From contig JACRNX010000011.1 in NCBI GenBank assembly GCA_016214755.1, positions 1 through 34,513 of the forward strand: DNA of 34,513 bases, written 5' to 3'. Within the stretch, counting starts at the first letter, position 1, and the number at the start of each line of letters is the position of its first letter. This document shows positions 3,221-31,510 of the stretch, piece by piece. The stretch comes from Candidatus Falkowiibacteriota bacterium. Its GTDB lineage: Bacteria; Patescibacteriota; Patescibacteriia; UBA11705; JABHMO01. A model generated the notes under the pieces. The model ran no database searches, had not been told where the DNA came from, and worked only from the letters and a program-made list of their open reading frames with translations. A program made the position numbers and the translations under genes.

Positions 3221-6200
3221 TTAATTTTCTTTTGTTAACGTATCCACTCGATAAAAATCTTCGTGCAATTCATTTTGATTTACTTCCTTCAGCTCGCCCA
3301 TAAACTTTTCTTCTTCGGGGCGGACTAAACGTTTCGCGCCAGCGACTTCCGCCTCTTCCGCCCGACTTAAATCTGAACGCAAAGTAAGAGGTTTTTCCTC
3401 CGCCTGCGCCTGTTCGACTCCTTTGCCCAAATGATGCGGCTTCAAATAAAAATCATCAACCAAATATCCGGATTTTTCCGCGGACAAATTATAACGCTCT
3501 GTCCGCTTCGGATAATAACCAACTTTTTCCGCAGTCATATAATATTCCTCGTTGCCGACCAAAAAAGCGTACCGGCCTTTTCCATCTGTTATCTGCGAAT
3601 CGAGGAGCTTGTTAAACTTGGTGTCAAAAACGCGGACAATCGAACGCGCGATCGCTGACTTTCGTTCAACATCTTTCACCGTGCCCCAGCTCTTTGGTTT
3701 TTCTCCCAATCCTAATTTTTTAAATATCCCGTACATCGCGATTTGCCCTGCCGCCACTCCTGCTACCCACCATGACGGACTAACCGCGAACGAAATAATC
3801 GCCAGCGCCGGTCCGACTAGAGTCAAAACTATTTGCGACCGGCGAACGAAATACATCATCAATTCTGCTTTGGCTTTTTTGAGCATTTTGTGCGGGTCAA
3901 GCGGAATGGCTTTATTCACCGCTTGTTTTTCCGAAAGTTCGATTTCGCCACCGAAATATAAATCTTCAAAACGGCCGTCAATCTTTTCACCAGCTAACAG
4001 CGCGCTGGGAAATTTTAATTCTTTTTTCTCAACGACAATGAAATATTGACCCTGATTCAAAATAAATTCATAACGGCCTTGCTTGTCAGTCACTCTGGTG
4101 CCGACTATTCGCCGCGTTTTCGAGTCGTAAACGCGGACAATCGCCAAATCCACCGGCTGTTTTGTCGCCGCGTTGTAAACTATTCCCCAACCAAATTTCT
4201 TTCTTCGCGCCAGCAGGAAAAACGGCTGGGTGAATAAAAATTGCAAATAAGTCAGCGCCGACGCGCCGGAGACGCCGGTCGCGCCGACCGTCGCCACCGT
4301 CGCCACTGAAGTCGCTGTCACCACGGCCATGGCCGGTTCTTTTGTTGTATCATTAACTTTTTCTACTATTCGATTATCCAAAGTCGCCTGTTTAATTTGT
4401 TTTGTCGTTTTGACAACGCCCTCGGCCGCGGCTTTAACTTGTTGCGTCGCGGCTTCAACATCAATACCCGTAATGCCGCTCAATATGGACGCCGCTTCGT
4501 TTATTATTTTTCCCATGACCGCTGACTGCATTATTTTTTCTGTTGCGTACGCGAGTTCCAGCGCCTTCTCCTCGTCGGTTTTCTCCCATTCTGGCTTGTT
4601 CTCTATGGCGCTGATCATTAATTCTATTTCTTTTTTTGTTTTTTCAACTTCTATTTCCGTCATTGCTCCTTCGCCGCTTATCGGTACCGCTGTTTGTTCC
4701 CCTGTTCCGACACCAATTTCTTCAATCGGCGCTATTTCTTTTTTCGGCACAAATACAATTGGTTTTGGCTCCTCGACGGGTTTCAGTTCTTCGACGGGTT
4801 TCGGCTTCTCAACGGGCTTCGGCTCCTCGACGGGTTTCGGCTCTTCGACGGGCTTCGGCTCTTCGACGGGCTTCGGCTTCTCAACGGGCTTCGGCTCTTC
4901 TACGGGTTTCGGCTTCTCAATAGGCTTCGGCTCTTCAACAGGCGCCAGCGCCACGTTAAACGCTTTTTCGTTCGCGGTCGCGGACATATTGCCTGCCAGG
5001 TCAATCGCTTTAACGGAAATTTTATGGTCGCCTGGAATTAAAATCGCGCTGAAATCATAAATCCAATTATTCGCCGAGACCGCGATTGTATCCACGTAAA
5101 TCGCGCCGTCAATGTACAGCATAATATATTTCGCGTCTGCTTTGACTTCTCCCTGCACTGCTAAACTCGATTTCAACTTTTCGCCGAATGAAGCGACTGA
5201 TTTGACTTGGATTAAATTTATCAGCGGCGATTCTGGCGCGGCCGTGTCAACGACAATCGTGTGTTTTTTTGAATACGCGCCGCCGCTAACAAGATAAATT
5301 ACGTGCGCCCCATCGTTTAACGCCGGGCTCACTTTCCAAACAAAGCTTTTATCCGACTGCGAAAGTAATTGATACGCGTTAACGTCATCAATAAATATTT
5401 TGACAGCCATCGCGCCTTCATTGGTCGTGCCAATAATATACGGCTGATTATTATTTAAAAGCGAACCGTCTTTTGGCTCTGACAAAATCGGCGCTGGATA
5501 TTGCAAATTATATTCGCTGTCGTCGCTGGCGCTGTCGCAGCCCGGATCCAGCAAATCAACATAGCCATCACTGTCATTGTCTTTGCCGTCACTACACTGA
5601 TAGATCACTGCCGTTGGCTGTACTGGCGTATCCGGCGTTTGATTATCATGGGACACACTCAACGTACTCAAGCTCCCAGCAGTTGAAAAACTCGTTTCAA
5701 TTCCATCAGCGTTTCTCGCTTTTACGCGGAAGGAATATGGCGTGCCGGCGGTCAATCCACTGCTTTGCCATGAATTCGTTTGAATCCAGCCAGAGTTCGT
5801 CGCCGCGGTTACATTTTCAAAATATAAGCCAGAGTTTCCGGTAGTTAAATTCGAAAATGTACCTGACGCCGTGACAGTAATATAGTTTGACGTTGTTGTT
5901 GCCGCGCTGACGCCGGTCGGCGTGTTTTGCGCCGTGTAATAACTTGCCGTCGCCGCTGTTGTTTCAATGCTGTCACCGTTTCTCGCTTTCACCCTGAATC
6001 CATATTGGGTATTGGCGGATAAAGAAGCGCTGTTCCAACTATTTACCTGCAACCAACCCGAGTTGCTGGATGTCGTCGTGTTTTCAAAATATAATCCTGA
6101 ATTACTGCTAGTTAAATTATCTAACGTGCCGTCCGCGGTAAGCGTAATGGAATCAGCGGCCAGCGCGCTTTTTGAAATCCCGGTCGGCGCGTTTTGGGCG

Positions 6201-9200
6201 GTAAAATAATTAGCGCTGGCGGTTGTTGTCTCGTCAGCATCGCCATTGCGCGCTTTGGCTTGAAATGTGTACTGGCGATTGGCGAGCAAGCTAGAACTTA
6301 TCCAAGAATTCGTTTGCGTCCAGCCGGAATTCGTGCTTTCACTGGTATTGGAAAAATATAATCCAGAACTAGCGCTTGTTAAATTAGAAAACGTGCCTGT
6401 CGCGGCAATGGTCAAAGAATTGACGGACAACGCGCTCTTGCTTACCGCGGTCGGCGCGTTTTGCGCGGTGTAAGCGGTCGTCTGTGCCGCTGATGTTTCT
6501 ACTAACGAATTATCGCGCGCCTTGACCGATAAAGTAACGGCCGTGTTGGCGGAAAGTCCGTTTTGATTCCAAAAAGCATTCGTCGTCCAGCCGCTATTAT
6601 CCGCCGGCGCGGCTGTGCTCGCGTAATAATCCTTCTGCGTGCCGCCGGACGCCCAAGTCCATTTCATGGCCGCGGTGGTCTGCGAACTGGCGTCATGGCC
6701 CAAACTGACCGGAATGCTGGCGCCGCTGCCGGACGCGGTGTACGCGCTGGTAGTCGTTGAAGCAATGCCTTCATCGCTTCCCTCTGCCCGCACATAAACA
6801 GAATACTGCGTGTTGATTATTAAGCTTTGCTGTGTATATTGACTGGTGGTCGAACCGACATTCCCAACTAACGTATTATCGCTTAAATAAATTTTGTAAT
6901 CCGACGCTTGAGCGACATCACTCCAATCCCAAGTAATCGAAGTCGTGGTTTGCGCGATCGCCGTCAAACCCGTTGGCTGGGCCGGCGGCATTGTTATCTG
7001 GCTGGTTTCCGGCGAAGATGTTGTATTTAAATTTCCTCCAAGATTATATGATGAAAAACGGAATTTATAGCAAACTTTCGGCGAGAGTCCGCTTACCGTG
7101 TAAGGCGATGCCTGTAAAGTAGACGCATTGTCATAAACCGTGGTGTCATATCCATTACAACCAGTGTCCTGTTCAATTTTTAAACCAGTCGGCGTGCCAC
7201 TGGCATAGGCCCAAGATAACCGCGCTTTATAAGTGCTCACGTCAGTCGCGTTCACCGCCCCTGCGCTCGTCACTTGTGGCGCGTTCGTGTAGGCGGCTAA
7301 TTCCGTGGCATTCGCTTTGTTTCCATAATTATCATAAGTCCAAATGTTCGCCACATACTGGGTGTTCGCCGACAAAGTAGCAATTTGGGTGGTATTGCCA
7401 GCAGTATAAGAAGCAGTCGCGATTGTGGTATGCAAAGTATCTGTCTCGGCCACGCCGGACGCCGCTTGCTTGTAGTATATTTTGTAATTATTAATATTCG
7501 TGTCACTGCCCGCGGCGCCCAAGGTGAAAGTAATGGAGTCCGTCGCTCGACTGCTAACAGTCAGACTGCCGCTGGCGACTGGATTTGAATTATCCACTTC
7601 AAAATTCGCTGACGCCTGCGCCGTGCCATCGGCAATGCTGTCATTCGGCGTTACGCGCACTTTAATGTCCGACTGGTCAGTGTTATTCAACGTTCCGTTC
7701 CCGTTTGACGCTGATTGCGTATCCCAAACAATCGTCAAAGCAATACTGCCAGCGCTTGTGTCAATAGCGTTGACTGAACCGATTTGATATGTTTGCGCGT
7801 CGTCTAAATCAACTGAACCAGAACTCGGGGTCGCTGACACCAAATCAGGGTCATACCAATTTGTTCCGCCGTCATCCGAATATTCGATTTTTAATTTTGT
7901 GTTTTCCGAGTTCGCGTCGGAAATCGCGGTGGAGAAAGTAATTTTTCCCGTGTCATCTGTTGATTGAGTAATGCTGGCCGGCGTTGTCGCCACCGGCACG
8001 CTGTTCGGTAAACTGGATATTTGCATGTATTGGTCGTACGTGCCCAACGCGGCGCCGCTGGACAATACTGCCCGCAGACAATACGTTGTATTGTTCGGCG
8101 CAGTGTTGTCGTAAAGCGCGAAATCCCAAAGACCATCTTGGCCAGCGGTAATCGCGGCCGTTGAATTAGTAAAATTGTTCGACTCTTCGTATGTCTGCGC
8201 TTGCACTGTGTGCGCGCCGTGCGTCGGGTCATTGGCGTTCACAGTCAAATTCGCGCCGTCCGCGGGCGTGGCGTTATTTTTATACGCCAGCGCCGTGGTG
8301 CCATCTACATCCGTGTAAGCCGCCGGTGTGCCGCCAGTCGGACTGGCGCAAGTGCCGGTTCCTTTGCCGACAAATTGTAATTTAAAATTTTGATTGGAAA
8401 CGTAAAGATTGCCGCCAGCGACATGCAAAAGCGTCCTCAAACGCACTGCTTGTCCATCAGCGGTCATGGTATAGGCCGTGTCTTGCGCCGCTAACGCCGC
8501 GCCCACGTCTGTCGAATCAGCGTTCGTATAAGCGCGAAACGCGGATTGATTATATGTTTTAAAATTCCAGGCCGCGTAGCGGTAAGTGCCGGTATTGGCG
8601 TTGACCGTCGTGTCTGTCCCCAAAGAAAAACCATCAGAGCCAAGAGCGGTTACAATGCCAGTGCCATTCGCCACATTAGAAAAATATTGATTGCCATTTC
8701 CCGTCAAAGTACTTGTCCGCAAGACGCCATTCACCGCGGTTGACCGTTTAATCCACAGCATATCCGGTTGAAATCCGACGCCAGTGATATCGCGAGCCAC
8801 GCCGGTCCCAGTATACGACACGACCACAAAATTTGAACTGGTTTTGAAAGAAAACCAATAATGCATAACCTGTAAACCATTGACGCCATCATTCGTGCCC
8901 AATTGAAATCCATCAGAATTAAATGTCTGAATTAAATTCGCCGCGTCGGCGCTGGCATTGAAATAATATGCGTTATCAGTTGTTTCAACAGACGTTCTCC
9001 AAACAGCAGATCGTATGGAGTTTGCTTTTATTACCACCAAATTGGGAGTCATCCCTGTTCGCAAAATATTCATACTATCAAGACCCGTGCCTGGCGGCAT
9101 ATAAGCGCCAACGCTGAAATCAGCCGCGCCAGACGCGTCATATGGGTCAAAAGCATTGCCAAACGCTTCCCAATAATAAGTATCAGCATTGGTATTTACT

Positions 9201-10492
9201 GTCGCGTGCGTACCGACCGTAAATCCGTTTGCGTCTAATGAAGTGATGCCTCCGGAAAAATTCGCTGTCGCACTACCGAAATAAGCCGTGGTATTACTAC
9301 CCATCATTTTTGTCCTAAAAACCGCCGCTTGGTCAGTAGCTTGGTCAGTATGTTTGATGATTACTAAATCCGGCTGAAAAGCAAGTCCAGTCACTGATTG
9401 CGCCACGCCGGTTCCCGCGTATGAACCAGTTGCTGACTGGAAAGTGCCGCTGGCTACCGGATCGCTCGCTCCGCCAAAAGCGACGTAATAATACGTTTTA
9501 TCGAGACTGGAATCACCGGCGCCGACAGTAAAGCCATTACTATCAAGTGAAGTTATTTTATTATTATAAATTTCTGAAGTATTTAAAAAAGTTGAATAAC
9601 TATTTGATTCAGTAACGTGGAAAGTCGTCCAACCAGCGGTAACCGCGCCTTGATTGATAATGGTATCCGGCTGAAAACCAACGCCCGTGATGCTTTGAGC
9701 CGCGCCGGTCCCTGTATAAGTACCAACGTTCATCGCGCCGGTCACGTTTTTAAAAGCGAAGAACCAATAAGTATTGGCATTGACATTTACTAATGTATTT
9801 GAGCCGACAGTAAAACCAGAAGTGTCCAAACTTTGAATGGCTGTTGTGTCAGTAATCGGCGCGCCGCCGCTTGCTTGCAGATATCGATTTGCCGCCAAAC
9901 TCGAACTTGACCAAACTCCAAGTGACGCGCCTGAGCGTTTAATCATGGCGAACGCCGGCTGGAAGCCAGTGGATATGCTTTTTGACGATAAGCCATCGCC
10001 CGTGTAACTGCCCACGCAAAAAGTGCCGGTGGCAGTGCAGTCCGAACCCTTAAACGCCGTCCAGACATATCTTACATCAACCGTATTTATATCTATCTCT
10101 GTCCCGACTGTAAAACCATTGCTGTCCAACGATTGAATCGCGTCCGAAGAAATATCCGCTTCAGCTTCGCCAAGTTTCGCTGTTGTTTCTCCTCCCATGA
10201 TATTGCTTTTCCACAAAATCCCGTCGTCTCCAAGATGGTTGTGTTCTTCCATCACTAAAAGTAAATCAGGCGAGAACCCCACGCCGGTAATCGCCAAATT
10301 ATCCGCGCCAGTGCCGACGTAATATCCGGTCTGCATCTGAAAAGTGGCGGCTTTTGCCGGCTCCATGAATGGCAGCCAATAAAAAATTCCCAGCGTCCAT
10401 GAAATTAAAATTAAAATCAATAATAGCCGGGAACTTTTTCTCGCTAAATAAGAAATCTTTCGCTCAAATTTCTTTATCTTCCGTTTGTTCAT
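3221..10492 (-). CDS. giant modular secreted/surface-anchored protein (2423 aa)
   Basis: N-terminal signal/TM; six ~90-aa SYTGTG..ITGVGFQPD..IK..SLDSNGFTVG repeats; Fn3-like domains; DGKDNDSDGYVDLLDPGC Ca-binding-like motif; Ig-like domains; (VEEPKP)n; C-terminal TMs with two carboxypeptidase-regulatory-like domains. Confidence 0.93.
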   Translation of the reverse strand: MNKRKIKKFERKISYLARKSSRLLLILILISWTLGIFYWLPFMEPAKAATFQMQTGYYVGTGADNLAITGVGFSPDLLLVMEEHNHLGDDGILWKSNIMGGETTAKLGEAEADISSDAIQSLDSNGFTVGTEIDINTVDVRYVWTAFKGSDCTATGTFCVGSYTGDGLSSKSISTGFQPAFAMIKRSGASLGVWSSSSLAANRYLQASGGAPITDTTAIQSLDTSGFTVGSNTLVNVNANTYWFFAFKNVTGAMNVGTYTGTGAAQSITGVGFQPDTIINQGAVTAGWTTFHVTESNSYSTFLNTSEIYNNKITSLDSNGFTVGAGDSSLDKTYYYVAFGGASDPVASGTFQSATGSYAGTGVAQSVTGLAFQPDLVIIKHTDQATDQAAVFRTKMMGSNTTAYFGSATANFSGGITSLDANGFTVGTHATVNTNADTYYWEAFGNAFDPYDASGAADFSVGAYMPPGTGLDSMNILRTGMTPNLVVIKANSIRSAVWRTSVETTDNAYYFNASADAANLIQTFNSDGFQLGTNDGVNGLQVMHYWFSFKTSSNFVVVSYTGTGVARDITGVGFQPDMLWIKRSTAVNGVLRTSTLTGNGNQYFSNVANGTGIVTALGSDGFSLGTDTTVNANTGTYRYAAWNFKTYNQSAFRAYTNADSTDVGAALAAQDTAYTMTADGQAVRLRTLLHVAGGNLYVSNQNFKLQFVGKGTGTCASPTGGTPAAYTDVDGTTALAYKNNATPADGANLTVNANDPTHGAHTVQAQTYEESNNFTNSTAAITAGQDGLWDFALYDNTAPNNTTYCLRAVLSSGAALGTYDQYMQISSLPNSVPVATTPASITQSTDDTGKITFSTAISDANSENTKLKIEYSDDGGTNWYDPDLVSATPSSGSVDLDDAQTYQIGSVNAIDTSAGSIALTIVWDTQSASNGNGTLNNTDQSDIKVRVTPNDSIADGTAQASANFEVDNSNPVASGSLTVSSRATDSITFTLGAAGSDTNINNYKIYYKQAASGVAETDTLHTTIATASYTAGNTTQIATLSANTQYVANIWTYDNYGNKANATELAAYTNAPQVTSAGAVNATDVSTYKARLSWAYASGTPTGLKIEQDTGCNGYDTTVYDNASTLQASPYTVSGLSPKVCYKFRFSSYNLGGNLNTTSSPETSQITMPPAQPTGLTAIAQTTTSITWDWSDVAQASDYKIYLSDNTLVGNVGSTTSQYTQQSLIINTQYSVYVRAEGSDEGIASTTTSAYTASGSGASIPVSLGHDASSQTTAAMKWTWASGGTQKDYYASTAAPADNSGWTTNAFWNQNGLSANTAVTLSVKARDNSLVETSAAQTTAYTAQNAPTAVSKSALSVNSLTIAATGTFSNLTSASSGLYFSNTSESTNSGWTQTNSWISSSLLANRQYTFQAKARNGDADETTTASANYFTAQNAPTGISKSALAADSITLTADGTLDNLTSSNSGLYFENTTTSSNSGWLQVNSWNSASLSANTQYGFRVKARNGDSIETTAATASYYTAQNTPTGVSAATTTSNYITVTASGTFSNLTTGNSGLYFENVTAATNSGWIQTNSWQSSGLTAGTPYSFRVKARNADGIETSFSTAGSLSTLSVSHDNQTPDTPVQPTAVIYQCSDGKDNDSDGYVDLLDPGCDSASDDSEYNLQYPAPILSEPKDGSLLNNNQPYIIGTTNEGAMAVKIFIDDVNAYQLLSQSDKSFVWKVSPALNDGAHVIYLVSGGAYSKKHTIVVDTAAPESPLINLIQVKSVASFGEKLKSSLAVQGEVKADAKYIMLYIDGAIYVDTIAVSANNWIYDFSAILIPGDHKISVKAIDLAGNMSATANEKAFNVALAPVEEPKPIEKPKPVEEPKPVEKPKPVEEPKPVEEPKPVEEPKPVEKPKPVEELKPVEEPKPIVFVPKKEIAPIEEIGVGTGEQTAVPISGEGAMTEIEVEKTKKEIELMISAIENKPEWEKTDEEKALELAYATEKIMQSAVMGKIINEAASILSGITGIDVEAATQQVKAAAEGVVKTTKQIKQATLDNRIVEKVNDTTKEPAMAVVTATSVATVATVGATGVSGASALTYLQFLFTQPFFLLARRKKFGWGIVYNAATKQPVDLAIVRVYDSKTRRIVGTRVTDKQGRYEFILNQGQYFIVVEKKELKFPSALLAGEKIDGRFEDLYFGGEIELSEKQAVNKAIPLDPHKMLKKAKAELMMYFVRRSQIVLTLVGPALAIISFAVSPSWWVAGVAAGQIAMYGIFKKLGLGEKPKSWGTVKDVERKSAIARSIVRVFDTKFNKLLDSQITDGKGRYAFLVGNEEYYMTAEKVGYYPKRTERYNLSAEKSGYLVDDFYLKPHHLGKGVEQAQAEEKPLTLRSDLSRAEEAEVAGAKRLVRPEEEKFMGELKEVNQNELHEDFYRVDTLTKEN
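4760..4939 (-). repeat. 18-bp tandem coding repeat, 10 units, VE(E/K)PKP
   Basis: VEEPKP IEKPKP VEEPKP VEKPKP VEEPKP VEEPKP VEEPKP VEKPKP VEELKP VEEPKP; exactly 180 bp. Confidence 0.95.
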
Positions 10493-27263: not shown

Positions 27264-29141
27264 TTGTATATGCCTATCGCTAATGACGAAACGAAAAATT
27301 CTTACCAACGACCTCCGTGGGACGAATATTTTTTAAAAATCGTGGAAATGGTCGGCAGTCGCGGCACTTGCGACCGCGGCCGGTCCGGCTGCGTCATCAC
27401 CCGCGACAAACGAATTATCTGCACCGGCTATGTTGGTTCGCCGAAAGGACTATCCCACTGCGATGAAATCGGACATGAGATGCACACAGTCATTGACGAA
27501 AACGGACGGACGACCGAGCACTGCATCAGAACAACGCACGCCGAACAAAACGCGATTTGCCAAGCAGCTCAATTCGGCATGTCTTTGCAAGGCGCCACAC
27601 TTTATTGCAAGATGACGCCGTGCTACACCTGCGCGAAAATGATTATCAACGCCGGCATCAGCCGCGTTGTTTGCGCTTTTGATTATCAAGCGAGCGAACA
27701 AAGTAAAAAAATATTTAAAGGAGCTGGCGTCCAATTTGATCTGTTAAATCAAACTGTTCTCGCTTACGGAAACACGAACAATCAGACAGAAAAGACGCTG
27801 AGCGACAATCATGCTTGCCGAACAGAAAATCAATTAGCCCAAATTTATATTTACGATGAATTCTCGCCGGAAGACACGGCCATGCTCCAAGCGTTGTATT
27901 CGCGCTCGCCGGAATCAGTCGTCAAACACGTTGATAAAGTAAAAGAAGCCGGCTCGGGCAAATTCATGGAAAAATTTTACGTCGGCTATGGCCACAAAAG
28001 CATCGCTGATTGCGGCAGTACGACGATTTTTATCGAGCGATTGAGCATTTTGGCCGACAAAGCGATTCAGGATTGGCCGCTTTATTCTGGCCAAGAAACC
28101 AGCACGCGCTATGTTGATATGTCGCGCCAGCTGATTATTGACCCTGTTGGTTCAGCGGCGTCAAAACAAATTCTTGACGATTGGATGTCTTTTTACGTTG
28201 ATAATCAGGAAAAAATTCAGGCGCGCGTCAGACAAAATTTTCCGCCAAAGGCCGATGAAAACGAGGCGATTTACGACAAAGCGGTTAAAGCGCGCGCCTT
28301 TGATATCACGCGCGGCTTTCTGCCGGCTGGCATCACCACTCAGCTTTCCTGGCACACGAATTTGCGCCAAGCGGCTGATAAATTATCATTTCTGCGCCAT
28401 CATCCACTTTCCGAAATTAAACAAATTGCGGACGATATTTATCAAAAACTCCAAGCAAAATATCCCAGCAGTTTTTGCCATAAATTTTATCCAGAACAAG
28501 AAAAATATCTGGCTGATGCTGTTAATAAAAATAATTATTTTGGAAACGACGACTGTCCGGAATTTGAAATGACGACAGACATCGGCTATTTTAAACTTTT
28601 AAATTACGGAAGAATGCTGGCCGAGCGTCCAGCCAAAGCGCTTTTACCCCATTTTTTGACAGAACTGGGTTTAATCACTTTTGATTTCAAACTTGATTTT
28701 GGTTCGTTCCGCGACATTCAACGGCACCGCAACGGCGTTTGCCGCATGCCGCTTTTGACGACTAAGCACGGTTTCAATAATTGGTATTTGGAACAATTGC
28801 CGGACGAAATTCGAGAGCAAGCGCGGGAGCTTATCGCTAAACAAACTGAACGAATCAACGCTCTTCCCGTAGATGACGAAATCAAGCAATACTATATTTC
28901 TCTGGGATTCAATGTCCCCTGCCGCGTCACCTACGGACTGCCGGCCGCGGTTTACGTGATTGAACTCCGCTCCGGCCAGGCCGTCCATCCGACATTGCGA
29001 AAAATCGCCCACAAAATGCACTTCGCGCTAAAAGAAAAATTTCCGTTCATCGCCCTGCACAGCGATCTTGAACTCGACGACTGGGACGCGCGGCGAGGGA
29101 GGCAGGATATTTGTTTAAAAAATGAAAAATGTAAAATGTAA
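27264..29141 (+). CDS. dCMP deaminase fused to tandem ThyX-like thymidylate synthase domains
   Basis: N-term HAEQNAICQ..TPCYTCAKMIINAGI zinc deaminase; then GYGHKS..FIERLSILADKAIQDWPLYSGQETSTRY..WHTNLRQAADKLSFLR; second domain DIQRHRNGVCRMPLLT..YVIELRSGQAVHPTLRKIAHKM. SD AAAGGAGGG before TTG 27264. Confidence 0.85.
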   Translation: MYMPIANDETKNSYQRPPWDEYFLKIVEMVGSRGTCDRGRSGCVITRDKRIICTGYVGSPKGLSHCDEIGHEMHTVIDENGRTTEHCIRTTHAEQNAICQAAQFGMSLQGATLYCKMTPCYTCAKMIINAGISRVVCAFDYQASEQSKKIFKGAGVQFDLLNQTVLAYGNTNNQTEKTLSDNHACRTENQLAQIYIYDEFSPEDTAMLQALYSRSPESVVKHVDKVKEAGSGKFMEKFYVGYGHKSIADCGSTTIFIERLSILADKAIQDWPLYSGQETSTRYVDMSRQLIIDPVGSAASKQILDDWMSFYVDNQEKIQARVRQNFPPKADENEAIYDKAVKARAFDITRGFLPAGITTQLSWHTNLRQAADKLSFLRHHPLSEIKQIADDIYQKLQAKYPSSFCHKFYPEQEKYLADAVNKNNYFGNDDCPEFEMTTDIGYFKLLNYGRMLAERPAKALLPHFLTELGLITFDFKLDFGSFRDIQRHRNGVCRMPLLTTKHGFNNWYLEQLPDEIREQARELIAKQTERINALPVDDEIKQYYISLGFNVPCRVTYGLPAAVYVIELRSGQAVHPTLRKIAHKMHFALKEKFPFIALHSDLELDDWDARRGRQDICLKNEKCKM

Positions 29142-29207: not shown

Positions 29208-30101
29208 ATGAATAAAATAATCGCCCTCGTCGGCATGACCGGCAGCGGCAAAAGCGCGGTCGCCGATTACCTCGTCCAGAAAGACTGGGGCTTCTGCCGC
29301 TTCGGCCAAATCGTGCTTGATATCGTCAAAGAGCGCGGACTGGCGCCGACCGAAGAAAACGAGCGGCCAATTCGCGAACAACTGCGCGAAGAACATGGCA
29401 TGGCGGCGATGGCTATTTTGAATATTCCAAAATTTGACGACATCCTGCGAACGCAAAATTTAGTCGCCGACGGTTTGTATAGTTGGTCTGAATACAAAAA
29501 ATTGAAAGAATATTACGGCGACCGGCTGGCGGTGGTCGCGGTTTACGCGCCGCCCAAATTGCGTTACGAACGGTTAGCCGGCCGCGTTCTCGCGGGCGAT
29601 GACGTCAATTTACGCAATCGGCCGGCGACAATTGACGCGGCCAGAGCGCGCGACTTCGCGGAAATTGAAAACATTGAAAAGGGCGGCCCGATCGCCATGG
29701 CGGATTATACTATTGAATACAAAACCAAAGGTTCGGTCGCTTTTGATTTATATTCTCGCGTTGACATCAAAATTCCACCGAAAAATTTGGCGCTTATTCC
29801 TTTAAATGTTATTATTAAAACGCCGAAGTCATATTTTCTCTTGATGGCCGCCCGCAGCAGTTTGCCGATAAAAAAGGGACTGATGATGGCGAACAGCGTC
29901 GGTATTGTTGACCGAGATTTTTGCGGCGATGAAGACGAATGGCAATTTGAAGCGTATAATTTTACCCACAAACCCGTGAAAATAAAACGGGGGGAACGAA
30001 TCGCGCAGGCGATGCTGCTCAAATTCAGCCGCGCGAAATTTGAACGCGTCAATTCGATGAATAAAAAATCAAGGCGCGGGTTCGGCAGTACGGGACAGTG
30101 A
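29208..30101 (+). CDS. P-loop (d)NMP kinase-like domain fused to dUTPase
   Basis: N-term MNKIIALVGMTGSGKSAVADYL Walker A; C-term dUTPase motifs ARSSLPIKKGLMMANSVGIVDRDFCGDEDEW and RRGFGSTGQ. Confidence 0.85.
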   Translation: MNKIIALVGMTGSGKSAVADYLVQKDWGFCRFGQIVLDIVKERGLAPTEENERPIREQLREEHGMAAMAILNIPKFDDILRTQNLVADGLYSWSEYKKLKEYYGDRLAVVAVYAPPKLRYERLAGRVLAGDDVNLRNRPATIDAARARDFAEIENIEKGGPIAMADYTIEYKTKGSVAFDLYSRVDIKIPPKNLALIPLNVIIKTPKSYFLLMAARSSLPIKKGLMMANSVGIVDRDFCGDEDEWQFEAYNFTHKPVKIKRGERIAQAMLLKFSRAKFERVNSMNKKSRRGFGSTGQ

Positions 30102-30207: not shown

Positions 30208-30846
30208 ATGCCAAACTACCAAGGCAAATTCATCGTGTTTGAAGGCGGCGAAGGCGCGGGCAAAACCACCCAAATTCAATTACTGACAGACAAGCTAAAG
30301 CAAAATGGGTTTAACGTTTACTTGACGAGAGAACCGGGCGGCACTGGCTGTCCAATCGCGGAAAAAATCCGCGAACTGCTCAAGAATCCGGAAAACCGCG
30401 ACATGACGCCGGAGACAGAACTGTTTCTTTTTCTCGCTTCGCGGGCGCAACACGTCAAACGGGTGATTGTCCCCCATCTTGAACGCGGCGACATCGTTGT
30501 TTGCGACCGATTTTTCGGCTCCACCCTCGCCTATCAGCATTTCGGCCGCGGCTTATTTAATCTTGATGAAGTTAAAAAAATAAACGACTTCGCCACCCAC
30601 GGACTGGAGCCGGACTTAACGATTCTGCTGGATTTGCCGCCAGAAGAAGGATTGAAACGAATTCAGCGCGAATTGAAAAACGACCGTTTTGACGGCGAGA
30701 AACTGGAATTTCATAAAAAAGTACGTACTGGTTATTTGACTCTGGCGAAAATCAAATCAAACTGGGCGCTGATTGACGCGAAAGGCGAAGTCAACGATAT
30801 TCACGAAAAAATTTGGCAGGCAACGGCGGAACTATTGGACCTTTAA
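30208..30846 (+). CDS. tmk: thymidylate kinase
   Basis: KFIVFEGGEGAGKTTQIQLL, YLTREPGGTGCPIAEKIRELL, VVCDRFFGSTLAYQHFGRG. Confidence 0.96.
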   Translation: MPNYQGKFIVFEGGEGAGKTTQIQLLTDKLKQNGFNVYLTREPGGTGCPIAEKIRELLKNPENRDMTPETELFLFLASRAQHVKRVIVPHLERGDIVVCDRFFGSTLAYQHFGRGLFNLDEVKKINDFATHGLEPDLTILLDLPPEEGLKRIQRELKNDRFDGEKLEFHKKVRTGYLTLAKIKSNWALIDAKGEVNDIHEKIWQATAELLDL

Positions 30847-30862
30847 CACTATGGAGGCGAAC

Positions 30863-31510
30863 GTGGCGAAAAATCCTTTGGTGCGCGATGGCTGGATCGA
30901 AGTAATCTGCGGCTGTATGTATTCTGGCAAAAGCCAGGAAGCGCTCAAGCGCGTAGAAAAAGAATTGCTTTCCAAAATCAGAAAGGCGCTGATTTTCGTG
31001 CCTGACCGCGGTCGGCGGCAAGTAACGATAACCGCGACTAACGAACAGGTTGACACGCAAAATAAAGTGGTGACGCGCGCTGGCGGAATTTTCAAAGCCA
31101 TTGAATTTCCGTGGAATAATCCAGCGGTCATACTCGGACACCTGACACCGGAAATTTCCACTGTCTTGATCGAAGAAGCGCACTTTTGCACTTCTGAATT
31201 GGTGGCAATCTGTAAAACAATGGCGGAGAAGCATCATCTGCGCGTTATCGTCGCTGGACTTGACCAGACATTCGCCAGCGAAGGATTCGGTCCAATGCCG
31301 GCGCTGATGGTTGAAGCAGAGCGGCTCGACAAAGAACTGGCAGTTTGCATGGAATGCGGCTCGCAGAACGCCAGCAAAAGCTGGCTCGATACTCGCGTCC
31401 GCAATCAAGTGCAAAACGGGCAAGTCCTAGTTGGCGATGAACAATACCGCGCCGTCTGCCGGCATTGTTATCGCGAATTAACGGAAAAGTACGGCGGACA
31501 AAAGCCGTAA
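30863..31510 (+). CDS. tdk: thymidine kinase (type II)
   Basis: IEVICGCMYSGKSQEALKRVEK, VLIEEAHFC, VIVAGLDQTFASEGFGPMPALM, zinc Cys pairs CMECG/CRHCY; SD GGAGG 6 nt before GTG 30863. Confidence 0.93.
   Translation: MAKNPLVRDGWIEVICGCMYSGKSQEALKRVEKELLSKIRKALIFVPDRGRRQVTITATNEQVDTQNKVVTRAGGIFKAIEFPWNNPAVILGHLTPEISTVLIEEAHFCTSELVAICKTMAEKHHLRVIVAGLDQTFASEGFGPMPALMVEAERLDKELAVCMECGSQNASKSWLDTRVRNQVQNGQVLVGDEQYRAVCRHCYRELTEKYGGQKP

Follow-up and report, generated by a model that had tools for sequence, protein, structure and literature searches.

Related systems and the architecture of the fused protein

The nearest precedent in architecture for the protein described here is the tmk-dut fusion of baculoviruses (pelu112, erel005 and op031), which is expressed as one polypeptide and speeds virus DNA replication (PMC4895240). 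As in the window, by which is meant the whole stretch of 34,513 nucleotides that was analysed, an N-terminal NMP kinase is followed by a C-terminal trimeric dUTPase. However, the baculovirus kinase is a thymidylate kinase, while that of the window is UPF0200-like and has a separate tmk gene next door, and the two fusions have independent origins; a Tmk or baculovirus-type N-terminal domain was rejected for the fused ORF, PF02223 matching the next gene instead. In the same class of bacteria, the protein L020:778-1920 also unites a dUTPase and an NMP kinase in one chain, but in the reverse order and with a kinase of another family (Tmk). The kinase and dUTPase families of the window both occur in a triple fusion (L209, 1495-3051, genome G555), a single 519-aa frame in which a dCMP deaminase lies between them and which has a separate origin in the kinase tree. 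Anti-phage dCTP deaminases of the AvcD type (NF041025; PADLOC dCTPase) combine a related P-loop kinase domain with a deaminase, the latter being found next door in the window. The window chain differs in having no deaminase and in its metabolic neighbourhood, and because it scores far below the family cut-off (17.9 against 400 bits for NF041025) it is not classed among the defence proteins. The closest relative of the kinase half, in both sequence and fold, is SSO1041 (UPF0200), a stand-alone archaeal protein crystallised with AMP (3lw7). The two are about 29% identical, and the window kinase is unlike SSO1041 in being without the C-terminal helix and in carrying a dUTPase. No mention of UPF0200 or SSO1041 was found in the literature searched.

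The fused gene, known in this form from the sequence of one MAG, is a 297-aa frame with an ATG start and no internal stop (29208..30101, + strand). It had been read in the initial annotation as a P-loop nucleotide kinase fused to a dUTPase, and this was borne out: the frame is unbroken, and the domain search proposed as a check placed both AAA_18 (residues 5-126, E = 9.4e-14) and PF00692 (residues 169-296, E = 1.2e-19, 70.7 bits against 22) above their curated Pfam cut-offs. The motifs quoted at that stage (GMTGSGKS, RSSLPIKKGLMMANSVGIVDRDF and RRGFGSTG) are all present. Residues 1-169 (29208..29714, +) make up the UPF0200-like P-loop NMP-kinase domain, as assigned from AAA_18, phmmer and profile matches to 3lw7/3h0k, AF2 and Foldseek, and include the Walker A motif GMTGSGKS at residues 9-16 (29232..29255, +). 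Within this motif G9, G12, G14 and K15 are invariant, both among the 22 close kinases of alignment A1 and among the 39 sequences of alignment A6. Missing catalytic residues had been named as grounds for doubting the kinase, but the fused protein keeps 34/34 of the columns that are invariant in A1, Walker A included, and several arginines are invariant among the close kinases, as should be the case for a working NMP kinase.

The second half, residues 170-297 (29715..30098, +), is a trimeric-type dUTPase domain with motifs I-V, recognised by PF00692, by TIGR00576 (E = 3.5e-26, its 91.7 bits falling below the stricter cut-off of 102.55) and by matches to PDB dUTPases, including those of H. pylori (8hrv) and B. 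subtilis (YncF, 2xcd). With trimeric dUTPases (PF00692; B. subtilis YncF/YosS, H. pylori) it has in common the five motifs, the catalytic Asp and the RRGFGSTG sequence. All five motifs are kept in alignment A2 (VAFDLYS, RSSLP, NSVGIVDRDFCG, GERIAQ and RRGFGSTG); motif III (29892..29927, +) contains the catalytic Asp235, which is invariant, and motif V lies at 30072..30095 (+). Two differences from the usual trimeric enzyme are evident. Motif III has a Phe, likewise seen in many A2 relatives, at the position where textbook dUTPases carry Tyr, and the first strand is missing, the last strand of the kinase standing in its place. The two halves match separate relatives, the kinase at 76% identity (genome G002) and the dUTPase at about 55-56%, with the boundary between the matches at residues 169/170, so that a chance joining is excluded. 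Neither half has signs of decay in its identities, motifs or invariant residues. Since the fused gene supplies the sole PF00692/DCD-family match, and so the only dUTPase, of a 95%-complete assembly, the fused protein is probably functional.

The kinase family and its genomic partners

The type of kinase had been given as that of adenylate or dephospho-CoA kinase; the assignment to P-loop nucleotide kinases stands, but the closest family is UPF0200 (3lw7 and 3h0k) and not either of those enzymes proper. Among PDB sequences, phmmer matched the kinase half to SSO1041 (3lw7, 3h0k) at E ~1e-12, and a profile of the 22 close kinases retrieved 3lw7 and 3h0k at E = 6e-23 and scarcely any other match. 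Structure prediction, which had also been suggested as a check, gave a kinase-only AF2 model with a pLDDT of 93 and pTM of 0.85, for which Foldseek ranks 1-4 were all SSO1041, the best being the AMP-bound 3lw7; after 3lw7 and 3h0k come adenylate and UMP/CMP kinases. By sequence and modelled fold, the kinase belongs with UPF0200. The C-terminal helix that follows the ADYxIxN strand in UPF0200 and AdkA-like proteins is found in all 21 remaining sequences of A1 but not in the fusion. Several other families were considered and rejected, including dephospho-CoA kinase (TIGR00152, 14.8 bits against a cut-off of 65.55) and cytidylate kinase (PF02224 is not listed for the ORF, and TIGR02173 gives 12.7 bits against 102.1). 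The phage deoxynucleoside monophosphate kinase family PF21448 leaves the window kinase unmatched, and a member of the second kinase subfamily, KIN2 (L014), scores 26.4 against its cut-off of 27.1.

Gene partners were counted at 80 GTDB loci, and as these are the best 80 of 550 matches, near-duplicates included, the figures indicate a trend and not independent events. A dCMP deaminase is fused to the kinase in 3/80, lies directly beside it on the same strand in 41/80 and nearby in 6/80, and a dUTPase is immediately downstream in 6/80 and nearby in another 6/80. The commonest genomic partner among these best 80 matches is the dCMP deaminase (fused or adjacent in 44/80), otherwise adk. Kinase and dUTPase genes that are adjacent, and often overlapping, were found at L003, L005, L025, L028, L030, L031, L034, L036, L055, L085, L088, L106, L108 and L114, and in G005 and G008 a KIN2 gene is directly followed by the same type of dUTPase and, further on, by tmk, the same order as in the window. 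In G002, the nearest relative, no dUTPase lies next to the kinase.

Where such partners are scarce the setting is a different one, the order secY-adk-kinase-map being present in seven of the 13 partner-poor loci inspected (L070, L071, L078, L079, L083, L098 and L104, around 4300-6400), with the adk-like, map-like (methionine-aminopeptidase-like) and secY-like genes named by sequence appearance only. The adk-like/map-like setting was seen in genomes of the Nealson/Staskawiczbacteria type. Both settings suit an NMP kinase, and the second of them, with the kinase flanked by an adk-like and a map-like gene, leaves room for a role that is not thymidylate-specific. A function as replacement for Cmk was looked for in the presence/absence rows, but there was no anticorrelation, Cmk being no rarer beside the kinase (6/23 kinase-bearing genomes) than without it (7/21). 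As this comparison gave no support for replacement of Cmk, the substrate suggested below is put forward as a hypothesis.

Rarity and origin of the fusion

Among about 750 sampled genomes of the same phylum (381 from the class and 380 from the phylum, a few of them overlapping), no other direct kinase-dUTPase fusion of the window type was found. At L008 (G027) both halves lie in one frame with a run of Ns between them. Open frames of ~346-383 aa over both halves in G631, G647 and G541 were rejected, since a TAG or TAA stop separates the genes at L219, L223 and L226, and a similar frame in G654 was rejected by analogy with these three loci. Scans of genomic and viral contigs with a single protein as query, a kinase-profile scan of viral contigs, and a search of viral sequences with a degenerate junction pattern gave no match. 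In two viral contigs a dUTPase is fused to an N-terminal domain of ~240 aa that looks HNH-type or zinc-binding (L146:1760-2857 and L159:1766-2866), and in a relative a dUTPase is fused to an NTP_transf_6 nucleotidyltransferase (L018:1426-2451).

The pairing is new but its component families are known, and such fusions recur in this lineage and pathway. Besides those described above, they include, in several lineages, dCMP deaminase-kinase (L027/L084 and L037) and kinase-dCMP deaminase (L075 and L087) proteins, and KIN2-dCMP deaminase proteins of 305-366 aa in Woesearchaeota/Nanoarchaeota (L048:6296-7303, L049:5637-6644, L052:5634-6641, L053:3848-4945 and L058:4039-4953). The last group has the AvcD architecture and may be related to that defence protein. 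In a kinase tree of 100 rows, well-supported branches force six separate changes of fusion state, and the window kinase and the unfused one of G002 are sisters (100/94) that lie near Woesearchaeota/Nanoarchaeota sequences, a placement which suggests gene transfer between Patescibacteria and DPANN. The window and L002 kinases group near L048, L049, L052 and L059 of DPANN archaea, with up to 73% identity.

The junction itself is abrupt. It lies at I169|E170 (29709..29723, +), as judged from the ends of the relatives' matches, AF2 and the alignments, straight after the final beta strand of the kinase core, and since that strand occupies residues 167-170 of the kinase model there is no linker. Separate kinases extend ~24 residues beyond ADYTI to form a final helix (A1), and separate dUTPases begin with ~15-20 residues (MKVKIKRIDKxLPLP) that form their first strand (A2). 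Both are missing from the fusion, in which EYKTKGSVAFDLYS follows directly after ADYTI, and by comparison with its separate relatives the dUTPase fold is incomplete at its N-terminal strand. The full-length AF2 model has a mean pLDDT of 68 and falls below 50 at residues 147-174, with a shallow alignment (A4 was used for folding, the larger A3 and A5 being discarded because their dUTPases were misaligned). The GC3 values of the two halves, 0.63 for the kinase and 0.50 for the dUTPase, are compatible with an origin from two genes. The loss of the last helix of one and the first strand of the other makes the junction look like the product of a deletion, in frame, across the boundary of two genes, and this is the simplest origin for the fusion.

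A probability of about one half is given to the reading that this is a genuine two-domain protein, consisting of an active UPF0200-type NMP kinase and an active homotrimeric dUTPase, that arose from a small in-frame boundary deletion within a dTMP-synthesis cluster. The shortened junction leaves room for a deletion artefact, in which real, overlapping kinase and dUTPase genes would have lost ~120 nt at their boundary during metagenome assembly and come to be in frame by chance. The missing parts are precisely the kinase tail and the first dUTPase strand, close relatives that have both genes retain these, and the join is absent from all the other sampled genomes, yet the frame is exactly kept, the two homologies abut without stray residues and the junction contains no N run. 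A second, clean fusion, of deaminase and ThyX with both sides at full length, lies just upstream, so the window lineage does fuse neighbouring genes, and an assembly error is considered unlikely, though to be taken seriously. Were the deletion real, it could also have left a damaged or one-sided protein in which one domain works, either the kinase or the dUTPase, and the other is a remnant. Core structural elements are gone at the join, and an in-frame ATG (Met164; 29697..29699, +), with a weak candidate ribosome-binding site (AAAAGGG) ~13 nt upstream, offers a possible internal start from which a dUTPase of 134 aa could be translated. The absence of decay, with 76% identity to the G002 kinase, ~55% to separate dUTPases and intact motifs and invariant residues, makes a remnant domain rather improbable.

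Finally, the N-terminal domain could be a regulatory nucleotide sensor, a role that the P-loop part of anti-phage dCTP deaminases may also have. With the PADLOC dCTPase model, the kinase (7e-10) and the neighbouring deaminase (2e-17) give separate matches, and the KIN2-deaminase fusions are matched over their full length (1e-56, L049). The scores against NF041025, from 17.9 to 149 bits (the latter for L049), nevertheless stay far under its cut-off of 400 bits, the invariant arginines are those expected of a working NMP kinase, and many genomes have the kinase beside an adk-like gene and without a deaminase, all of which makes a purely sensory domain very improbable.

The dTMP-synthesis cluster and a possible role

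The initial annotation had supposed a nucleotide-pathway context, and rightly so, as the fused ORF sits in a dTMP-synthesis cluster. Upstream is a ComEB-like dCMP deaminase fused to a double-length ThyX (27264..29141, +; 625 aa; PF00383 E = 9e-22, PF02511 E = 3e-19), and downstream are genes for thymidylate kinase (tmk, 30208..30846, +; TIGR00041, 195.7 bits against a cut-off of 83) and thymidine kinase (tdk, 30851..31510, +; PF00265 E = 4e-30), the start of the latter being set at an ATG inside ORF 30773-31510. In a relative, G038 (L228), deaminase and ThyX are separate, adjacent genes, and a single match spanning both at full length was found in 0/54 other relatives.

With a genuine fusion of two active enzymes as the preferred reading, the following scheme can be suggested. 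A small in-frame deletion would have fused two adjacent genes of the dTMP cluster by taking out the boundary that separated them, and the dUTPase part would form its usual trimer, bearing three kinase domains. The dUTPase and the neighbouring dCMP deaminase would then supply dUMP to ThyX, while the kinase would most likely phosphorylate a deoxynucleoside monophosphate at the dCMP/dUMP node. It had been proposed that the fusion serves channelling or substrate regeneration, an idea which was not confirmed: rephosphorylation of dUMP by the kinase would undo the work of the dUTPase, and for the same reason a different dNMP, such as dCMP, is the more sensible substrate. The host assembly (95% complete) encodes Gmk (169 bits), Tmk and Tdk, together with a UMP kinase of divergent sequence (47.5 bits), but no true Cmk could be recognised in it, and on this ground (d)CMP is the best guess at the kinase's substrate. 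By phosphorylating dCMP the kinase would pull this shared pool toward dCDP and so set the split between dCDP and dUMP/dTMP, and its attachment to the dUTPase trimer would hold both activities together at a constant ratio, with no implication of true channelling. The kinase is thus best read as a dNMP kinase, perhaps a (d)CMP kinase, tethered to a dUTPase at the dCMP/dUMP node.

That two proteins work together is strongly indicated when their genes are fused, and the recurrent fusions and gene adjacency tie the UPF0200-like kinase of Patescibacteria and DPANN to dCMP deaminase and dUTPase. They provide a testable role for an orphan kinase family that is without an assigned function in the literature searched, and make it a candidate for the CMP/dCMP kinase that is missing from such genomes. 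It could be speculated, tentatively, that an uncharacterised dNMP kinase family, widespread in these two groups, acts at the dCMP/dUMP branch together with dCMP deaminase and dUTPase, and that its repeated welding to them (as deaminase-kinase, kinase-deaminase, kinase-deaminase-dUTPase and kinase-dUTPase) is a compact substitute for the Cmk/Dcd route in reduced cells. The kinship with the kinase domain of the anti-phage dCTP deaminase also bears on the origin of that defence protein. Elsewhere on the same contig, a 2423-aa ORF occupies the minus strand at window positions 3221-10492 (-).
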